Source of the DNA: Uliginosibacterium aquaticum
GTDB taxonomy: Bacteria; Pseudomonadota; Gammaproteobacteria; Burkholderiales; Rhodocyclaceae
Direction of reading: 5' to 3'
Assembly (NCBI RefSeq): GCF_012972705.2
Contig: NZ_JABCSC020000004.1
Coordinates: 186,001-250,000 of the forward strand
DNA length: 64,000 bases
Shown: one piece after another, positions 44,709 through 57,760 of the stretch
Layout of the letters: each line of letters opens with the position of its first letter
Numbering within the stretch: the first letter of the stretch is position 1
Notes under the pieces: generated by a model
Databases searched by the model: none
What the model saw: the letters and a program-made list of their open reading frames with translations, nothing else
Told to the model about the DNA's origin: nothing
Position numbers and translations under genes: made by a program

Positions 44709-46859
44709 ATGAAAAACAAAGGGATGCCGGCAGGGGCCGCAGCACTCATCTGTGCGTTGGTATTGGGCGCTTGCGGGGGCGGTGGTTCAGATGCTGGCGG
44801 TTCCAGCGCCGGCACGAATAGCAGCGCAGCGGGGGCTTCCTCAGGGGCGGCAGTCAGCAGCACGAGCAGCAGTGCCGTAGCGTCGGGGGCGAGCAGCCAG
44901 TCGGCTTCCTCTGCGGCGAGCGTGGCGGCTTCGTCCGCAGCCGTGAGCAGCGGTGCGAGCGGTGAGAATCTGAGTCTGCAGGTGCCGCCGCTGGCCTATG
45001 ACGACAGCAGTCTGACCCTGGTGTGGAAGAAGCCGGCGGACTACAGCGCCCTGGCTGATTTCAACGTCTACATGAATGGCAGCAAGCTGGGTAGCGCCGC
45101 TGCCAACAACACGCTCAACTCGCCGGCCAAGCCCTATATCGACCAGTTCTACGCGGCCGATACGGCGGGTTTTCACGTCAAGGTACTGTTCCACAACTTC
45201 AAGGTTACGGGCCTTGCACCGGACACGGCCTACACTTTCACCGTGCGCGCGGTGGATGCGGCGGGCAAGGAGTCAGCCGACAGTCAGCCGCTCACGGTGC
45301 GCACGGCACCCGCCTATACGCGGATTTATGACGTCTCCAAACTCGGTGCGATGGGTGATGGCACGACGCTCAACACCAGTGTCATCCAGGATGCCATCGA
45401 TACCTGCGCCGCCGGCTCTAGCTCCGCTTACGGCTGCAAGGTGCTGATTCCGGCGGATGCGGCCAGCGGCAAGGTCTTCCTGACCGGGGCCTTGTTCCTC
45501 AAGAGCAACATGACGCTGGAGATCGCAGAAGGCGCCACCCTCAAGGGGTCGGCGGACTCGGTGGATTACCCGCTGGCCAAGGGCTATCAGCTCTACAGCT
45601 ATTTCACCAACAGCACTGATGATCGTCGTCCTCCGTCGCTGCTCAATGCCTTGAGTCCTGCGCACATGAACGGTACTGCAGCACTTGTCGACCACAATGG
45701 TTACGACGAAACGCGCGGCGTGTTCCAGAACATCCGTATCACCGGCAAGGGCACGCTAGATGGCAATGGCTGGACACGCTCTGCCACCGACACCACCGAT
45801 GAGCTGGGCAATGGTCTTGCCAATTTCGCCGGTGGCAGTGCCAGCAAGGTGGCCAGCCTGGGCATCCTTGCCAAGAGCCAGCTGGCGGCTACCGGGGCGA
45901 CGGTAGGCAGCACGGCGCACGATAACTACTACAGCAATCGTCGCTCCAGCCTCGCCACCTTCCGCGGAGTGCGCAACATCTATCTGGGCGAGCTGAAGCT
46001 GACTAATCCGGCCTATCACGGCGTCATGTTCCTGGAGAGCGAGAACATGGTGTTCGCTAATACCGTGACCCAGACCTTCGACATCAACAATGCTGATGGT
46101 GTCGAGTTCGGCAATAGCGACAACGCCTTCGTGTTCAACAATTTCGTCGATAGCGGAGATGACAACATCAACTTCGCGGCCGGCCAGGGCAAGAACTACG
46201 AGGGTGTCACGCCGCAGCAGAATGCCTGGATCTTCAACAACTATCTGCGCGAAGGGCATGGCGGGGTGGTGGCGGGTAGCCATACCGGTGCCTGGATCCA
46301 GGACATCCTGGCCGAAGACAACGTGATGTTCCTCACTGACAACGGCCTGCGCATGAAGAGCACGCCGGCTACCGGAGGCGGCGCGCGTCGGGTGGTGTTC
46401 CGCGACAACGCCATGCGCAACGTTGGCACCAAGAATTCGGTGACGATCAGTGGCCGCACGCTCAGCAACAATACCAACGGCAATCCCTTCATCTTCACCC
46501 TGGCTTACTCGGCGGGCAGCAATGTGTTCGACAAGGCCAGTGCCTCGGCGCAGTTCCGTGACATCACGATCCGTAATGTGACGGTGGATAACGTCAGCAC
46601 CAGCAGCGGTGGCGCCATGATCAAGGTTGATGGCTATGACGGGACCGACGCCACGCTGGGCTATGCGGAGACCTTCCAGGAGAACATCCTGTTCGACACG
46701 GTGAAGATCACCAATGCCCTGCCGATGAGCATCAGCCGCCTCAAGGACAGTCGCTTCACGAACGTGACGATCACCAACTGGGGCACGGCCACCACCCCCT
46801 GGGCGATCGCGAACTCCAGCGGCTTGACTTACTCCGGCGTGACACCTGCCGTGCCCTGA
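44709..46859 (+). CDS. GH28 polygalacturonase lipoprotein
   Basis: A 716-residue secreted lipoprotein with signal MKNKGMPAGAAALICALVLGAC (lipobox LGAC). A Ser/Ala/Gly-rich linker (about residues 25-85) leads to a fibronectin type III domain (about 92-198), then a GH28 right-handed beta-helix (about 203-700). GH28 active-site motifs are NNADG (about 459), SGDDNI (481), GHGG (515) and RMKS (547), corresponding to NTD, DD, GHG and RIK. It would hydrolyse homogalacturonan, and the FnIII-first layout suggests exo-type (PehX-like) action. It has its own promoter region and terminator, and sits next to the LacI-type chemoreceptor. Confidence 0.92.
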   Translation: MKNKGMPAGAAALICALVLGACGGGGSDAGGSSAGTNSSAAGASSGAAVSSTSSSAVASGASSQSASSAASVAASSAAVSSGASGENLSLQVPPLAYDDSSLTLVWKKPADYSALADFNVYMNGSKLGSAAANNTLNSPAKPYIDQFYAADTAGFHVKVLFHNFKVTGLAPDTAYTFTVRAVDAAGKESADSQPLTVRTAPAYTRIYDVSKLGAMGDGTTLNTSVIQDAIDTCAAGSSSAYGCKVLIPADAASGKVFLTGALFLKSNMTLEIAEGATLKGSADSVDYPLAKGYQLYSYFTNSTDDRRPPSLLNALSPAHMNGTAALVDHNGYDETRGVFQNIRITGKGTLDGNGWTRSATDTTDELGNGLANFAGGSASKVASLGILAKSQLAATGATVGSTAHDNYYSNRRSSLATFRGVRNIYLGELKLTNPAYHGVMFLESENMVFANTVTQTFDINNADGVEFGNSDNAFVFNNFVDSGDDNINFAAGQGKNYEGVTPQQNAWIFNNYLREGHGGVVAGSHTGAWIQDILAEDNVMFLTDNGLRMKSTPATGGGARRVVFRDNAMRNVGTKNSVTISGRTLSNNTNGNPFIFTLAYSAGSNVFDKASASAQFRDITIRNVTVDNVSTSSGGAMIKVDGYDGTDATLGYAETFQENILFDTVKITNALPMSISRLKDSRFTNVTITNWGTATTPWAIANSSGLTYSGVTPAVP

Positions 46860-46882
46860 GCCCGCAGCATCTGCTCATCTGA

Positions 46883-46916
46883 GCCCCGCGCCACCGCAAG
46901 GTGGCGCGGGGCTTTT
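46883..46916 (+). terminator. Strong intrinsic terminator after the polygalacturonase gene
   Basis: A perfect 13-base stem (GCCCCGCGCCACC with its complement) around GCAA is followed by TTTT. It separates the GH28 gene from the chemoreceptor gene, so the two have separate transcripts. Confidence 0.9.
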
Positions 46917-47102: not shown

Positions 47103-49499
47103 ATGGTGACGAACAAGAAACCGGTGGCCTATCTCGCCCGCGAGATGGGCGGCGGGGGCATGCCTGACCAATTGCTGGACGGCATCCTGAACGCCACCGA
47201 GAAACAGGGCCAGCATCTGGCCGTATTCCGTGGCGGCTATCTTGGCAAGGATGCTGGCGCGGCGATCTACGATCTGATCGGCCCGGCCTATCAAGGCGTG
47301 ATTTCCTGGGCCTCGTCGGATGCCGACAAGATCACCAGCTGCTATTACGAGCGCTACGGGAAACTGCCGGTGGTGACCCTGACCCTGCCAGTGCCCGCGC
47401 GCCCGGTGGTGACGATCGACAGCTATGCCGGCATGCGCCTGATGCTCGATCACATGATCCAGCATCACGGCAAGCGTCGCCTGGCCTTTGCACGCGGCCC
47501 TGAGAGCCACCCCTACGCGCGCGAGCGTTATCAGGCCTATCAGGATGTGCTGCGCGAGACGGGGCTCTCGGCAGATCCGCAACTGGTGTCGCCCTGCCTG
47601 ACCTGGGGCAAGGATCAGGGCGAGATCGTGGTGCGTCTGCTGATCGACGAGCGCAAGCAACGCCCTGGGGCGGACTGGGATGTGCTGGTCTGCGTGAATG
47701 ACAACATCGCCATCGGTGCGATCGAAGCGCTCCAGGCGCGCGGCATCCGGGTGCCGGAGGATGTAGCGGTCACCGGCTGCAACGATGCTTTCGAGGCCCG
47801 CACGGTGACACCGCCGGTGAGCACAGTGGCTCTGCCGGGGGATGCGCAGATCGCCAAGGCACTGGATCTGGTCAATGAGCTGGCCTCCGGCGGGCGTGCC
47901 GGGAACGAGGCCAAGCTGCCGGCGCGGCTGGTGCTGGCGCAGTCCTGCGGCTGCTCCTCGCACAATGTGCAGACTGCACTCTCCGGCCTCAGTGCGGCCG
48001 GTCAGCCCTTCGGAATGCTGGCGCGGGCGAAGGCGCTGCTGCGCATGTTCGGCTTCTTCAGCCAGGCGAGTGCGGTCGAGGCTATGTGCGCTGCCGTGGA
48101 TCTGGGGCCGGAAGCCTCGGAGGCTCGCAAGGAGGTAGTCCGCCAGCAGGCTGAAGCGCTGGTGGAGGCCTTCGCCAAGGAGTTTGCCTGGAGTCGCCAC
48201 CGTGGCGCTTTCATCAAGGCCCTGAATGTGGCGGCCAAGGCTTTTGCCGACAACAAGCTGCAGATCGAAGATCTGCACAACTGCATCTCCGCCTTGCGCA
48301 GTCGCCGCCTGCCGAGCCTGTGGTGGCGCGGGCGCATGATTCGCGCCGAGGATATCTGGAGTCAGGGGCGGGTTGCGCTGAGTGAAGCGGCAACCCGCAT
48401 CCGCGCCGCCGCCAATCTGCGTGCCGTGGCTCAAGAGCGGGCGATCAGCCAGCTGGGGGCCAAGCTGGTCACGACTCACGAGATTCCGGCCATCGTCAAA
48501 CTGCTTGAGCAGGATATTCCCAAGCTGGGCATCCCTGCCTTCTGCCTCGCCGTGTATGAAGGTGGGCCTGGCTGGGACCGCAAGAGCATTCCCTCTCAGC
48601 TCAAGGTGCTGACCTCTTTTGGCAAGTTCGGCAAACGCTTTGAGGGCAGCAAGACCACCCTGGCCTGCGAAGCCCTGTTGCCAGAGTTGCTGGCGGGCAG
48701 CAATGAGCGCCTCGCGCTGATGGTGATGCCGCTGCATTTCACCGATACCCAGATCGGCCTTGCCGTGTTCGGTGTGGGCCCGCGTGATGGTGGTGTTTAT
48801 GAAGCCATCAAGATCCAGCTTTCCAGCTCAATGTTTGGCGCCTTGTTGCGCCAGACGCTGTCGAGCACCCTGGGCATGCTTGAGGAGAAAGTGGCCGCAG
48901 TGTCGGTGAATTCCGAGGAGATCAATCACAGCGTGCAGGGCGGCTCGGATGCCATGGAAGGCGTGGCCAGCGCCATGCATGGCATCGCCCAGCATATCCG
49001 CGAGGTGATGGATGTGATCCGCAAGGCAGTGGATCTGACCGCCGCGGCCAATCGCGACATGGCGACCCTGCGCGCGCAGTCCGGCGAAATCACCAAGATC
49101 CTTGGCCTGATCACCGAGATTGCCGAGCAGACCAATCTGCTCTCGCTCAACGCAGCCATTGAAGCCGCTCGGGCGGGAGAGGCCGGGCGTGGTTTCGCCG
49201 TGGTGGCGCAGGAGGTGAAGACCCTGGCGATGAACACCGTGACCTCCTCGGCCAGCATCCGTGCGATGGTCGGTAATGTGCAGGAGAGCACTCAGCTGGT
49301 GGTGGGGTCGATGTCCGGCATCAGCGAGATCATGAGCAAGGTGTCGGAGCTGGCGGCCGGGATTTCCAGTTCGATCGTCGAGCAGGAGCAATCGGCCGGG
49401 GAGGTCTCTTCGATTCTGGTCGAGGCTGCACTGGGGACTGAAGGCATTGCCAAAGTGCTGGCGGAACTGGATGCGGTGAACAAGAGCGCACAGTTCTGA
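47103..49499 (+). CDS. Soluble chemoreceptor with LacI-type sugar-binding sensor
   Basis: A 798-residue cytoplasmic protein with no signal peptide, membrane helix or DNA-binding domain. Residues 5-285 form a PBP1/LacI-type sugar-binding domain ([73 protein letters not shown]) ending at the CGC typical of such domains. A helical middle (300-450) and a GAF-like region (about 450-590) follow, then an MCP signalling domain (about 600-798) with the hairpin tip [18 protein letters not shown] at about 672. The HAMP-less MCP should signal to CheW/CheA from the cytoplasm. The signal may be a sugar released by the neighbouring pectinases, but this is inference. Confidence 0.88.
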
Positions 49500-52900: not shown

Positions 52901-53540
52901 GCTGTTTCAGGTGAGTGCTGATCGGTAGATCAGAGGCAGCTCAGGCTGATGCTGTTGATGTAGACCGCTGAGGAAGAGTCGGTGCGGATCTGCAGGAAGG
53001 AACCGCCCGTGTAGCTTGCGTTGTCGAGCTTCCAGGTGAAGGTGTTGTCTCCAGCCACGATGCTCGTTGCCGCAACAGAAACAACCACCGAGGTGTTTTT
53101 CGTGGTCGTTGTCCCGGTGCTTGAGAGCGTGGACGTAGCATGCGGTGAGTTCCCGGTGCTCGTCGTGTTGTTATCAACGTATACCTGGAAGGTGCTGCCG
53201 GTACCTGCCTGGCTTGCGTTGATCGTCAGGGTGCAGGTCTTGCCGATGATGTTGAAAATACCGCCTGGAGTGTAGTTGGCCGGCGAGCCTGTGGGCCCCG
53301 TCGTTGTTCCTGTGCCCAGAGCCCCGATTGTGAAACGAGCGCCAGCCAGGGTAATTACGCCACCGGAAACTGTCGGGCTTCCACCTGTCTTTGCATACAT
53401 CGACACTTCTGTTCCGGCGTCATTGGTGAACTTGGCATAACCAGTCGTGAACAGAGTTGCCGTAGTAGCCAGTGAGAAGTCGTCCGACCACGGATAGGTG
53501 ATCGTCGTAGCGCTACCCCCACTGGCCGAGCTGGAGGCTG
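52879..53540. repeat. Duplicated pectate lyase 3' segment, copy 1
   Basis: About 662 bases match the segment at 55181-55842 almost perfectly, with an exact offset of 2302 bases. It covers the terminator-like hairpin and the C-terminal module plus the start of its linker. Within the coding part I see one clear difference (G at 53278, A at 55580). The match ends sharply within the Ser-rich linker. Confidence 0.9.
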
Positions 53541-55023
53541 CGGTGCTGCTCGAAGCAGCCGACGAAGCGGCCGAACTGCTGGCAGCGGCAGAGCTGGTGG
53601 CCACCGATGAAGCAGCACCACCGCTGGAGGCACTGCTCGAAGAGGAGCCATCCGGCATCTTGCCCGCACCAGCGCCATTCTTGATGAGATCCGGAACGTT
53701 CGCCGCATCATCCAGTGTGTAGGCGTAGGGGATCGTGATGGAGGTGGTCGACTTCACATCCGGGCCGGCCGGGTACTCCTTGTTGGTGGCATCGGCCAAC
53801 CAGGTCACATTCGCCCCGAAGATGTTGCCAGCCACGTCCCAGTAGCCCATCACGTCGGTGTAGAAGGTGCCGATGGGGTTCTTGGCGTTGGTGAAGTAGT
53901 TGTTCTCCGCCTTGATTTTGCCGTTCATGCGCGGATTCATACCCGATTCGATGATGCCGTCGTAGTAGTTGTTGAACGAGTGCGCGGTCGCCCAGCGCAG
54001 CAGCGGCATGCGTGAATGGAGGTTCTTGTAGTAATTGTGATGGTAAGTGACCGGCCCGTTCTGGTCGTCACTGTCACTGTAACCGACCAGGCCACCGCGG
54101 TCGGAGCCTGTGAGAATGGTCCAGGAGAGGGTGACGTACTTGGTGGTGTCCTTCATGTCGAACAATGCGTCGTAACCGTCCGACTCTCCACCTGAGGCTT
54201 CGAGTGTGCAATGGTCAACCCACACGTTAGAAACATTCGTTTCCATGCCAATTGCATCACCTCCATTGGAGGTGGGCGAGCCGGATTTCTTCACGTTCTT
54301 CACGTGCACATTGCGGATGATGATGTTCTTCGCATCGCGAATGTGGATGCCGATCTGATCGAAGACCGCATTGCTGCCCACACCTATGATGGAAACGTTC
54401 TGCACTCCCTTGAGCTGGATGGCGTCTGCCACTGTGTCGCATTGACCGCTTTGCTTGGTGGTGTTGCCGTGATTGATCGTGCCGTTGACCTTGATGATGA
54501 TCGGGGTGGTCTTGGTGGTGCGATTGCACAGGGCTGCGTTGAATTCGGTACCCGTGGTCACGATGACTTCCGCACCGCCAGCGCCGCCCGTGGTGCCACC
54601 ATTCTCGGTCGAATAGCCGACCTGTGCGTCGATGAAGTTGCCGCTGCTTGCCGAGGAGCTGGTGGCCGAGGACGCCATGGCGGACGAAGTTGCGGAGCTT
54701 GAGGCAATGCTTGAGTTTGTAGAGGAGGATGAAGCCGCAGTAGGTGGTGCTGCACCTACGCTGCTGGCGGCTACGGAGGATGCTGCTGCCGTTGAAGAGG
54801 CTGCGCTTGAGCTTGCTGCAGCGGTGGAGCTGGCCGTCGTAGTCGAAGACGTCGCGGTGGATGTTGTTGCTGCCGACGAAGCTGCGGTAGAGGTGGCGGC
54901 AGATGAGGTTGCTGCTGCCGTGCTGCTGCCTGCCGAAGTGGTGCCGCCACCACCACCACAGGCCGTGAGTGTGCTTATGGCAGCGACGATGGCGACCTGA
55001 TTCATGCTACGTAAAACAGACAT
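52930..55023 (-). CDS. PL1 pectate lyase lipoprotein
   Basis: A 697-residue secreted lipoprotein with signal MSVLRSMNQVAIVAAISTLTAC, a Ser/Ala/Thr linker (about 28-128) and a PL1 catalytic beta-helix (about 130-455). PL1 marks are NVWVDHCTLE, GYDALFDMK with the calcium Asp, YHHNYYKNLHSRMPLLRW with the catalytic Arg (about 336-341), and AHSFNNYYDG. A second Ser-rich linker (about 462-500) leads to a C-terminal module of about 190 residues that is nearly identical to that of the neighbour. It cleaves polygalacturonate by beta-elimination. GGAGGAG lies 6 bases before the ATG. The closest neighbours are the TerB-like gene and the second lyase. Confidence 0.93.
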   Translation of the reverse strand: MSVLRSMNQVAIVAAISTLTACGGGGGTTSAGSSTAAATSSAATSTAASSAATTSTATSSTTTASSTAAASSSAASSTAAASSVAASSVGAAPPTAASSSSTNSSIASSSATSSAMASSATSSSASSGNFIDAQVGYSTENGGTTGGAGGAEVIVTTGTEFNAALCNRTTKTTPIIIKVNGTINHGNTTKQSGQCDTVADAIQLKGVQNVSIIGVGSNAVFDQIGIHIRDAKNIIIRNVHVKNVKKSGSPTSNGGDAIGMETNVSNVWVDHCTLEASGGESDGYDALFDMKDTTKYVTLSWTILTGSDRGGLVGYSDSDDQNGPVTYHHNYYKNLHSRMPLLRWATAHSFNNYYDGIIESGMNPRMNGKIKAENNYFTNAKNPIGTFYTDVMGYWDVAGNIFGANVTWLADATNKEYPAGPDVKSTTSITIPYAYTLDDAANVPDLIKNGAGAGKMPDGSSSSSASSGGAASSVATSSAAASSSAASSAASSSTAASSSASGGSATTITYPWSDDFSLATTATLFTTGYAKFTNDAGTEVSMYAKTGGSPTVSGGVITLAGARFTIGALGTGTTTGPTGSPANYTPGGIFNIIGKTCTLTINASQAGTGSTFQVYVDNNTTSTGNSPHATSTLSSTGTTTTKNTSVVVSVAATSIVAGDNTFTWKLDNASYTGGSFLQIRTDSSSAVYINSISLSCL

Positions 55024-55180: not shown

Positions 55181-55842
55181 CGGCGACCTTACGGTTGCCG
55201 TTGCCGTTTCAGGTGAGTGCTGATTGGAAGATCAGAGGCAGCTCAGGCTGATGCTGTTGATGTAGACCGCTGAGGAAGAGTCGGTGCGGATCTGCAGGAA
55301 GGAACCGCCCGTGTAGCTTGCGTTGTCGAGCTTCCAGGTGAAGGTGTTGTCTCCAGCCACGATGCTCGTTGCCGCAACAGAAACAACCACCGAGGTGTTT
55401 TTCGTGGTCGTTGTCCCGGTGCTTGAGAGCGTGGACGTAGCATGCGGTGAGTTCCCGGTGCTCGTCGTGTTGTTATCAACGTATACCTGGAAGGTGCTGC
55501 CGGTACCTGCCTGGCTTGCGTTGATCGTCAGGGTGCAGGTCTTGCCGATGATGTTGAAAATACCGCCTGGAGTGTAGTTAGCCGGCGAGCCTGTGGGCCC
55601 CGTCGTTGTTCCTGTGCCCAGAGCCCCGATTGTGAAACGAGCGCCAGCCAGGGTAATTACGCCACCGGAAACTGTCGGGCTTCCACCTGTCTTTGCATAC
55701 ATCGACACTTCTGTTCCGGCGTCATTGGTGAACTTGGCATAACCAGTCGTGAACAGAGTTGCCGTAGTAGCCAGTGAGAAGTCGTCCGACCACGGATAGG
55801 TGATCGTCGTAGCGCTACCCCCACTGGCCGAGCTGGAGGCTG
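55181..55842. repeat. Duplicated pectate lyase 3' segment, copy 2
   Basis: Second copy of the direct repeat at 52879-53540. The degree of identity, compared with unrelated catalytic domains next to it, indicates recent duplication or gene conversion of the C-terminal module. Differences are few and mostly in the downstream hairpin. Confidence 0.9.
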
Positions 55843-57760
55843 TGGAGCTACTCGCTGCCGTGCTTGAGCTCGTTGCGGACGAAGCCGAACTGCTGGCTTC
55901 CGAGGAGGATGCAGCCGAGCTGCTTGTCGCGCTGCTGGAGTGGTTTTCACCTGAACCGGCTACCGGCGCGGTGTTACAGGCTCCTGCCGTGCTGGTGTTG
56001 TTCAGGCCAACCTTGCCGGCCCCCGCGCCGTTCTTGACGATGCAGGCCAGGTTCAGCGGCGCGGACTCAACCTGATAGGCGTATGGCGGTGTCCAGTTTT
56101 TAGTGCTTGCATAACCGCAGCCCGTCAGCATGTTTGATACGTCCGCGCCGGCCGGCAGATACTTGCTGCTCTTAATCCAGCTTCGGTTCTGGCGGAAGGC
56201 CAGGCTGCTGCCGTGGTCTGTTACCACTTTTTTGCAGGCTTCGGACTCCTTGGTTGGCTGAATTTCCCACAGCGTACTTTCGATAAGCACATCGCCCTTG
56301 ATGGCCATGCCGATGCCGTTCTCGAACTTGGTTGCGGTGGAAGACTCGCGGTCGCCCTCGATGTAGTTGTTGAAGACGTGAACTTGGCCAAAGCGCACGC
56401 GCGGTAGGCGGCTCGCGACGTCAGCGTAATAGTTGGCCTTGAAGGTGACATGCAGGCGGTTAAGGTCACTCCAGTCGCGCGAATCGGCGTTTCCGACTAG
56501 GGTCGTCTTGCCGTGCTCGATGAAAGCGCTGTTGGAAACGGTGATGTAGTCCGAGCCGCGCACGATGTCGAGCGCGCCGTCGTGACGCGTGCCGGACAGA
56601 TCCTTGTCCTTGTACTGCCCGTCAGTAACTGTGACGTGGTCGATCCACACGTTTTGCGCCATGGCTACGACCATACCGTCGTAGTAGGCGTCCGAGCTGC
56701 CTTCAGGCTGTACATCGAAGTTCGTCTGGATCCAAAGGTTGCGCACGATCACGTTACGTGTCCAGCCCGGATAGCTTTCCTGGCTCTTGCCAAGCGTTTT
56801 GATCCAGTATTCGTAGTCCGCAAGATCGCTGTTGACCGTACTGGCAAACTCCTTGCCGATTTCGATTTGGGCTGAGATCAGGCGCGCCGGATTGCCGCTG
56901 GCGTCGTTGATGCCGATAAAGGTGGTATTTGATGGAATGACGATTGACGAAGCTTTCTGATCATCCCAGCTTGTAAAATCACGGAATACGCCATCGTCAT
57001 CAATTCTCATGTCGATGTTGCCGTACACCCGAATGATCTTGGGTTCGTTCTTGGCTTCCTTCAAAGCGTCGAAGATGCACTTTTTGGTGCCACAGGTATA
57101 AATCCGGTTGGCGGTGGCCGATGAGCCACCAGTTACGCGCACCTGCTGGTGGTTGCCCAGCGTGCCGCCTGCGCGGTAGTAGCTATGCCAGCCATCCAGC
57201 GGGGCTGTTTCTCGTTCGATGGTGAATTCGCCGCCACTGGGATCGCTGGAAATGCTCGGGTATGCCGTCGGTGTGCCAGGAGCAGGAGTCGCTGTCGAGA
57301 CGTGATTGGCCGTGTTCACCGGATCACTAGCTGCCAGATACGAACGTGCGCCCATCTTGCTCCAGCCTGACCAGCCATTCAGTGGCTCGCTTGAAGTACT
57401 GGTTAGTGTGAGGGCGTCGATGATGCCGCCATTGGTTGAGGAGGCTGTGGCTGATGAGGCCGCTGAACTGGCTACTGACGAAATCACAGCAGACGAAGCG
57501 GCTGCTGAGGAGGTTGCAGCAGTCGAAGAAGTAGCGGCTGTTGAGGTGGTCGCTTGGGAGCTTGCTGCAGCAGAGCTCACTGCAGTAGCTGACGAGGCCG
57601 TCGCTGCAGACGAAGCTGCTACTGCCGTACTGGAGGCTGCCGTTGAGCTGTTGCTTGCCGAAGTGGTGCTACCCGTGCCGCCACCGCCGCCACCGCAAGC
57701 GCTCAGAACGCTGACGGCTGCAACGAGCGCAGCTAGATTGATACTGCGTGATGCTGACAT
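55232..57760 (-). CDS. Large PL1 pectate lyase lipoprotein
   Basis: An 842-residue secreted lipoprotein with signal MSASRSINLAALVAAVSVLSAC and a Ser/Ala linker (about 27-112). The PL1 catalytic domain spans about 113-600, with NVWIDHVTVTDGQ, RHDGALDI (calcium Asp) and SRLPRVRFGQVHVFNNYIEGD, which holds the catalytic Arg (about 448). An additional N-terminal segment (WSGWSKMGARSYLA...) makes it longer than the neighbour. A Ser-rich linker and the shared 190-residue C-terminal module follow. GAGGAG lies before the ATG. The first lyase gene lies downstream on the same strand, with 208 bases between. Confidence 0.92.
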   Translation of the reverse strand: MSASRSINLAALVAAVSVLSACGGGGGGTGSTTSASNSSTAASSTAVAASSAATASSATAVSSAAASSQATTSTAATSSTAATSSAAASSAVISSVASSAASSATASSTNGGIIDALTLTSTSSEPLNGWSGWSKMGARSYLAASDPVNTANHVSTATPAPGTPTAYPSISSDPSGGEFTIERETAPLDGWHSYYRAGGTLGNHQQVRVTGGSSATANRIYTCGTKKCIFDALKEAKNEPKIIRVYGNIDMRIDDDGVFRDFTSWDDQKASSIVIPSNTTFIGINDASGNPARLISAQIEIGKEFASTVNSDLADYEYWIKTLGKSQESYPGWTRNVIVRNLWIQTNFDVQPEGSSDAYYDGMVVAMAQNVWIDHVTVTDGQYKDKDLSGTRHDGALDIVRGSDYITVSNSAFIEHGKTTLVGNADSRDWSDLNRLHVTFKANYYADVASRLPRVRFGQVHVFNNYIEGDRESSTATKFENGIGMAIKGDVLIESTLWEIQPTKESEACKKVVTDHGSSLAFRQNRSWIKSSKYLPAGADVSNMLTGCGYASTKNWTPPYAYQVESAPLNLACIVKNGAGAGKVGLNNTSTAGACNTAPVAGSGENHSSSATSSSAASSSEASSSASSATSSSTAASSSTASSSASGGSATTITYPWSDDFSLATTATLFTTGYAKFTNDAGTEVSMYAKTGGSPTVSGGVITLAGARFTIGALGTGTTTGPTGSPANYTPGGIFNIIGKTCTLTINASQAGTGSTFQVYVDNNTTSTGNSPHATSTLSSTGTTTTKNTSVVVSVAATSIVAGDNTFTWKLDNASYTGGSFLQIRTDSSSAVYINSISLSCL

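Follow-up and report, generated by a model that had tools for sequence, protein, structure and literature searches.

A soluble chemoreceptor with a LacI-type sensor core, found in Uliginosibacterium and in Spirochaetota, and the question of a pectin-derived ligand

Introduction

The window, i.e. the whole stretch of 64,000 nucleotides of Uliginosibacterium aquaticum DNA that was analysed, carries a chemoreceptor gene beside genes for pectin-degrading enzymes. The locus raises the question of what this receptor senses inside the cell and whether its ligand is derived from pectin, as an earlier note made from the sequence alone had proposed. Cytoplasmic chemoreceptors (soluble MCPs) with PAS, GAF, globin, and CZB sensors are well known, and few sugar sensors are understood as well as LacI cores, whose pockets and allosteric routes are known. 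In the available part of one report, 23.3% of chemoreceptors are cytosolic and at least 80 types of chemoreceptor ligand-binding domains are counted, the LacI-type core being absent from the list of the most abundant types given there (PMC7390727); a LacI-type sensor may thus be among the rare ones. No LacI-MCP fusion was found among the matches listed in our full-text literature searches. Soluble MCPs are a known kind of protein, as are LacI-type cores joined to outputs other than DNA binding, and it is the LacI-GAF-MCP type that was not found in the literature searched.

Domain organization of the receptor

The receptor gene and the parts of its product are as follows.
47103..49499, + strand: LacI-GAF-MCP receptor gene (open frame, 798 aa, ATG start, stop included)
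47124..47972, + strand: two-lobed sensor core of the LacI/GalR type without helix-turn-helix, residues 8-290 (Pfam, phmmer, AlphaFold2, Foldseek)
47943..47954, + strand: SCGC motif at the sensor exit, residues 281-284 (sequence comparison)
48015..48473, + strand: helical connector, residues 305-457 (AlphaFold2 models)
48483..48788, + strand: GAF-like domain, residues ~461-562 (model; best Foldseek E 2.3e-3)
48789..49496, + strand: signalling helix and short MCP hairpin, residues 563-798 (Pfam, model, arm-length count)
49101..49220, + strand: MCP hairpin tip, residues 667-706, with the tip Glu at 687
49368..49397, + strand: methylation-like site [10 protein letters not shown], residues 756-765 (pattern match)

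The Pfam search identified Peripla_BP_3 at residues 121-282 (E 9e-23) and Peripla_BP_1 at 23-221 (E 4e-11) in the sensor core, and MCPsignal at 649-789 (E 5e-30; 105 bits against a cut-off of 34.6) in the C-terminal part, where the hairpin tip is canonical ([30 protein letters not shown]). The LacI helix-turn-helix gave no Pfam match in the receptor, the core of which begins at residue 8, and no Pfam family exceeded its cut-off either before the core or between the core and MCPsignal. The frame also opens 54 codons upstream, at a GTG, and the segment 46941-47540, comprising this extension and the first part of the core, contains no Pfam family; the four intact orthologues aligned from the genus start at or near the ATG.

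The AlphaFold2 model of the whole protein (mean pLDDT 73.5) shows a two-lobed alpha/beta core up to residue ~290, followed by a helical connector and a small mixed domain and, as far as the C-terminus, by helices, with the MCP part poorly determined (pLDDT mostly 40-60). Its Foldseek matches are LacI-family cores, the best being CelR-cellobiose (5ysz, E 1.9e-14). Residues 296-600, modelled separately (pLDDT 83.4), had Foldseek matches only above E 0.001, the strongest of them a GAF domain (5w10, with E 2.3e-3 and a TM-score of 0.58 on the target). The 50 matches listed for this segment were mostly GAF domains or GAF-containing phosphodiesterases and phytochromes, the best GAF matches lying at 2e-3 to 1e-2, and two were ribosomal. 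The model thus weakly suggests a GAF fold in the middle of the receptor, and the domain is termed GAF-like because the Pfam GAF family gave no match in the receptor up to E 1.

No membrane helix was found in the receptor, the highest 19-residue Kyte-Doolittle mean being 1.34; across 11 LacI-MCPs, this maximum ranges from 0.97 to 1.46. With a strict methylation-site consensus, one site (756-765) was detected in the window protein; the pattern is present in three of five genus proteins (that of the window included) and in five of six spirochaete homologues, at positions that partly differ. The earlier description of a LacI/PBP1-like domain without a helix-turn-helix, a canonical MCP tip, and no membrane helix is thus borne out by these searches, whereas that of a GAF-like region is borne out weakly.

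The sensor shares its fold over ~280 residues with the LacI/GalR cores (LacI, CelR, GntR, and RbsR) but differs from these factors in lacking the helix-turn-helix, in the SCGC motif, in the residues at three pocket sites (Arg13, Trp69, and Asn227), and in its MCP output. Like other cytoplasmic chemoreceptors, the protein has no membrane helix and a canonical tip and would sense in the cytosol; it differs from them in that the sensor is a two-lobed LacI core.

Distribution in the genus and in Spirochaetota

Within the genus Uliginosibacterium/Dactylopiibacterium, the receptor was identified in five of the seven other genomes, i.e. in six of eight including that of the window, and two genomes (G011 and G185) contain no match. 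The four intact orthologues share 52-59% identity with the window protein and retain all domains, the tip, and the pocket sites. The fifth, in genome G122 (L042:8895-11323), is spread over two overlapping frames whose junction, near residue 295, coincides with the boundary of sensor and connector; this arrangement could reflect an assembly error, decay, or a true split.

Scanning of the contigs with a single sequence yielded no relative, whereas an alignment-based scan did. In Spirochaetota, 60 of 392 genomes match the cassette profile at E 1e-40, with the two best first-look candidates scored per genome, and at least five of the 392 contain full-length, colinear homologues of the receptor. 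These six proteins cover profile positions 3-795 of 800 and are 30-32% identical to the window protein, with the identity spread along the whole chain. Scans for LacI-MCPs outside the genus revealed none among 399 genomes of the order (E 1e-45, two best first-look candidates per genome), 249 genomes of the family, eight of which are the genus (E 1e-30, up to five candidates), or 398 genomes of the phylum (E 1e-35, up to three candidates); since few candidates per genome were scored at strict thresholds, these absences are soft and all counts are lower bounds. One further homologue scan (E 1e-20, four first-look candidates per genome) had, like these three, pointed to a fusion confined to the genus. 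Thirteen matches of the family scan lie outside the genus, two of which (L093 and L101) end before the output domain, and the readable matches outside the genus in the family and phylum scans have outputs other than MCP.

The LacI-GAF-MCP receptor is therefore a family present in two phyla, and confinement of the fusion to the genus of the window, which had been considered, is ruled out by the spirochaete homologues. The earlier note had called a LacI-type sensor on an MCP unusual; this holds for the literature searched, but the fusion recurs in the genus and in Spirochaetota. The profile search that it had suggested for such fusions and their neighbours did uncover a LacI-MCP family, one that is not restricted to pectin degraders. 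A LacI core in a soluble MCP in two phyla offers a well-delimited example of taxis that relies on sensing a metabolite in the cytoplasm.

Relationships of the sensor and signalling halves

In a tree of 57 sensors, the 11 LacI-MCPs form one side of a branch (SH-aLRT 98.7) that separates them from 46 rows with another or an unread output, a class that includes rows whose output lay past the fetched stretch. Rows were used if their coverage of the profile began no later than position 85 and reached at least position 540; Lentzea-type rows were cut to four, and near-copies were dropped. In a tree of the signalling domains, a branch separates 10 LacI-MCPs from 34 MCPs of the window genome, which has 36 MCP genes besides that of the receptor (SH-aLRT 95.8); G1060a and two own-genome MCPs, missed by the tip pattern, are not in this tree. 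Both trees are quick searches without bootstrap, and the second, which holds no other spirochaete MCPs, shows only that the receptors of the genus are nearer to the spirochaete LacI-MCPs than to MCPs of their own genome.

Counted from the tip Glu onwards, the C-terminal arm has 107-112 residues in 10 of the 11 LacI-MCPs and 131 in G1060a. The arm of the window receptor (111 residues) is shorter than those of 33 of the 34 other MCPs measured in its genome, of which 18 have 146 residues. The grouping of the sensors, that of the signalling halves, and the arm lengths together favour transfer of the whole receptor, which probably moved as a unit between the genus and Spirochaetota, in one direction or the other. 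The gene and the window have equal GC contents (0.637 and 0.638), and the transfer is thus not obviously recent.

A horizontally acquired gene might also be an orphan with decayed function, uncoupled from signalling and kept by chance. The split orthologue in G122 and the two genus genomes without a match would fit such a history, but four orthologues are intact at the identities given above with domains, tip, and pocket sites conserved, and the GC content gives no sign of a recent arrival, so that decay appears highly improbable.

Ligand pocket

Four residues of the sensor core were aligned with sites of LacI that line its inducer pocket.
47139..47141, + strand: Arg13, aligned with LacI Ser69; Arg in 11 of 11 LacI-MCPs and in none of 18 other aligned proteins
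47307..47309, + strand: Trp69, aligned with LacI Asn125 in one of two alignments; Trp in 11 of 11 LacI-MCPs and 3 of 18 others
47526..47528, + strand: Arg142, aligned with LacI Arg197
47781..47783, + strand: Asn227, aligned with LacI Asp274; Asn in 11 of 11 LacI-MCPs and 3 of 18 others

The alignment comprised the 11 LacI-MCPs, eight regulators of E. coli K-12, two LacI-type regulators from among the five other LacI-type proteins of the window genome, and eight cassette proteins with other outputs. Arg at the site of LacI Arg197 is common to the receptor and LacI and occurs in every aligned row except GntR, which has Lys, while Asn at site 227 also occurs in three of the eight cassette proteins with other outputs. 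The match of Trp69 to LacI Asn125 is unsure because the placement of a gap varies with the alignment: when the other E. coli regulators are left out, the gap falls elsewhere and Asn125 meets residue 74.

Among the E. coli regulators, LacI, PurR, RbsR, and GalR bind neutral ligands, and GntR, IdnR, TreR, and Cra bind acids or phosphates. The site of Asp274 is occupied by Asp in all four of the former and by Gly or His in all four of the latter. The added Arg and the lost Asp in the receptor therefore point towards an anionic ligand, hinting at this from an alignment of low identity with only eight E. coli regulators, and an anionic carbohydrate (a sugar acid or a sugar phosphate) would be the most likely class. 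The earlier note had named a lack of pocket residues as an argument against its own proposal; the residues are present and, as far as the alignment can tell, do not contradict an acidic ligand. The signature is also common to the spirochaete receptors and thus gives no special support to pectin.

Gene neighbourhood and the link to pectin

The pectinase genes around the receptor gene and the hairpin upstream of it are as follows.
44709..46859, + strand: polygalacturonase-type GH28 gene with a fibronectin III domain (Pfam)
46881..46914, + strand: terminator-like hairpin between the GH28 and receptor genes, 15 pairs, 12 of them G-C (pattern scan)
52930..55023, - strand: PL1 pectate lyase gene (Pfam)
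55232..57760, - strand: PL1 pectate lyase gene (Pfam)

As the earlier note had stated, the polygalacturonase gene adjoins the receptor gene and two pectate lyase genes are close; the distances to the latter are 3.4 and 5.7 kb. The 3.3 kb scanned contain five terminator-like patterns against 1.8 expected, the other four having stems of 5-8 pairs. Because the hairpin of 15 pairs lies between 46859 and 47103, the GH28 and receptor genes are probably separate transcripts, and an operon of the two is improbable.

The neighbours of four orthologues were identified as follows.
G074: a two-component system and an S13 peptidase
G122: a TRAP-type binding protein and an M30 peptidase
G229: KdpA of a potassium ATPase
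G209: an sCache MCP and an EamA transporter

At the G209 locus (L038:5252-8760), a Cthe_2159-type carbohydrate-binding protein (~2 kb away, on the side opposite PL1) and two PEP-CTERM proteins are also encoded beside the receptor. A PL1 gene lies 0.7 kb from the orthologue in G229 and ~4 kb from that in G209, where the profile match is 4,967 bases off and thus barely inside 5 kb. These two PL1 neighbours share 47% identity but flank the receptor gene on different sides, and conserved PL1 synteny is thereby ruled out. No PL1 or GH28 match was found within 10 kb of the other three orthologues (G156, G074, and G122).

The window locus was excluded from the linkage statistic because it had prompted the question. 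A pectinase is present within 5 kb in two of the five other orthologous loci (P 0.015), and for distances of 7 and 10 kb the chance of two or more such loci is 0.025 and 0.043, respectively, all uncorrected for the several distances tried; within 2 kb, one of five loci has a pectinase (P 0.11). These values derive from the density of PL1 and GH28 matches per genome, with genome sizes rounded and contig ends ignored. All eight genomes of the genus carry PL1, with 5-20 match rows each, and this includes G011 (7 rows) and G185 (13 rows), the two that lack the receptor.

Six pectin-related proteins used as BLAST queries gave no match in the neighbourhoods of the six spirochaete receptors. Ten proteins, nine of them neighbours, were run against Pfam, one receptor being located at a contig end. 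The neighbours include a Peripla_BP_6 binding protein and transporter genes, genes for purine and histidine synthesis, an efflux system, and an alcohol dehydrogenase, and ribosomal-protein genes were recognized by eye beside two of the receptors. A GH43 gene lies ~5.5 kb from one of them.

The reading in which the ligand is galacturonate or some other product of pectin taken up by the cell, and in which the receptor guides swimming up a pectin gradient alongside the action of the GH28 and PL1 enzymes, draws on the adjoining GH28 gene, the two nearby PL1 genes, the PL1 genes at the G229 and G209 loci, the carbohydrate-binding protein at the latter, the presence of PL1 in all eight genus genomes, and a pocket that may accommodate an acid. 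It is weakened by the three of five orthologous loci without a pectinase, by pectinases so numerous in the genus that two of five loci yield only the uncorrected P values above (0.015-0.043 at 5-10 kb), by the hairpin that separates the GH28 gene, by the blank BLAST search around the spirochaete receptors, and by the PL1-rich genomes that lack the receptor. We regard this reading as rather unlikely. Homologues located consistently far from pectin genes, which the earlier note had named as evidence against swimming towards an imported pectin-derived sugar, were found at the spirochaete loci examined but not in the Uliginosibacterium branch. The putative acid-compatible pocket and the linkage at two of five loci remain on the side of that proposal, while the hairpin and the spirochaete loci without pectinases speak against it, and the link to pectin is possible but weaker than first proposed.

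In the available parts of two reports (PMC7055323 and PMC9314435), chemotaxis to pectin is described via periplasmic binding proteins, SPH1118 of Sphingomonas sp. A1 and TogB of Dickeya. According to these parts, SPH1118 is, like the sensor described here, two-lobed and linked to pectin, and has a positive cleft with Arg and Trp contacts; however, SPH1118 and TogB are periplasmic and separate from the MCP, SPH1118 being a cluster C solute-binding protein, whereas the window receptor is one cytoplasmic chain. If its ligand were a pectin product, the receptor would be a one-protein alternative to this periplasmic-binding-protein route. A wider scenario is that a repressor-type sensor was recruited once into a chemoreceptor, that LacI-GAF-MCP was passed as a unit between Spirochaetota and Uliginosibacterium, and that swimming in the latter is guided by an internal acidic sugar released from pectin. 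Taken in full, this is rather unlikely; if true, a product of digestion and import, and not the outside world, would be read by one soluble protein.

Proposed signalling mechanism

We consider it quite probable that the protein is a cytoplasmic MCP that senses a likely anionic carbohydrate through its LacI core and controls CheA-CheW, and that it belongs to one family that probably moved whole. The LacI-type core, freed of its DNA-binding domain, would bind a small intracellular ligand in the cleft between the lobes. The ligand would close the core, and closure would be relayed via the helical connector and the GAF-like domain and from there, through one continuous helix, to the short MCP coiled coil. 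The canonical tip would then control the CheA-CheW complex, and swimming would follow the concentration of an internal metabolite. The domain order, the soluble nature, the grouping of the sensors, and the conserved pocket signature on which this scheme builds were established by computation. We infer the class of the ligand, the direction of signalling, the coupling to a flagellar Che pathway, and the transfer.

The window genome contains 39 match rows for the MCP domain, which by our reading correspond to 37 genes, and 11 for the CheW domain, and the chemosensory machinery is thus present; no CheW-domain match is located near the receptor gene. Assignment of the receptor to one Che cluster by similarity of the hairpin was attempted, but the comparison tied it to none in particular.

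With its short arm of 111 residues, the receptor may not join the main flagellar array. The short hairpin could instead signal to a non-flagellar chemosensory pathway, with type IV pilus or c-di-GMP output, and report carbon status. Besides the arm length relative to the other MCPs of the genome, several CheA-sized frames with a CheW domain at different places (651, 736, 691, 651, and 2112 codons) and the relatives of the sensor that drive GGDEF cyclases and kinases would suit this alternative. However, the tip is canonical, the best tblastn match in the genome apart from the receptor itself is an MCP with an ordinary arm (148 residues), and nothing links the receptor to one particular Che cluster; a non-flagellar pathway is therefore judged unlikely, and control of the CheA-CheW complex in swimming remains the preferred reading.

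The LacI cassette with other outputs

The same LacI-connector-GAF cassette with the SCGC motif is found in LacI-GAF-GGDEF, LacI-GAF-histidine kinase, and LacI-AraC proteins, which differ from the receptor in their outputs and lie outside the LacI-MCP group in the sensor tree. GGDEF or histidine-kinase outputs were identified by Pfam in another genus of the family, and GGDEF-type sequences in Bacillota and kinase-type sequences in Lentzea by motif and by eye; in two spirochaete MAGs, visual inspection showed the output to be an AraC-type helix-turn-helix. In the available part of a 2022 review (PMC8846402), the LacI-like domain is said possibly to bind sugars and is placed among c-di-GMP sensory domains without an experimentally validated role. 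The GGDEF, kinase, AraC, and MCP outputs on the same cassette represent a natural swap series, in which it becomes directly testable how a single sensor can drive outputs that are unrelated to one another.

In 78 of the 81 distinct LacI-cassette proteins collected, which have several outputs, a [ST]CGC motif is located at the exit of the LacI core, while it is found in none of the eight E. coli regulators and neither of the two LacI-type regulators of the window genome. This SCGC/TCGC motif could be metal-binding, redox-active, or structural.

Three genomes from another genus within the family each carry a LacI-GAF-GGDEF gene and a kinase gene with the LacI cassette that are arranged end to end and converge (L043:7305-12076, L044:7665-12650, and L045:619-5771), the outputs being assigned by Pfam in two genomes and by motif in the third; such a pair possibly reads related ligands into two outputs. 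Genome G011, which has no LacI-MCP, encodes a LacI cassette with a weak GGDEF match (L047:7811-10018, E 9e-7), perhaps a degenerate cyclase. In an Oscillospiraceae MAG (L077:1754-12160), four LacI-cassette genes with GGDEF-type motifs are arranged in a row.
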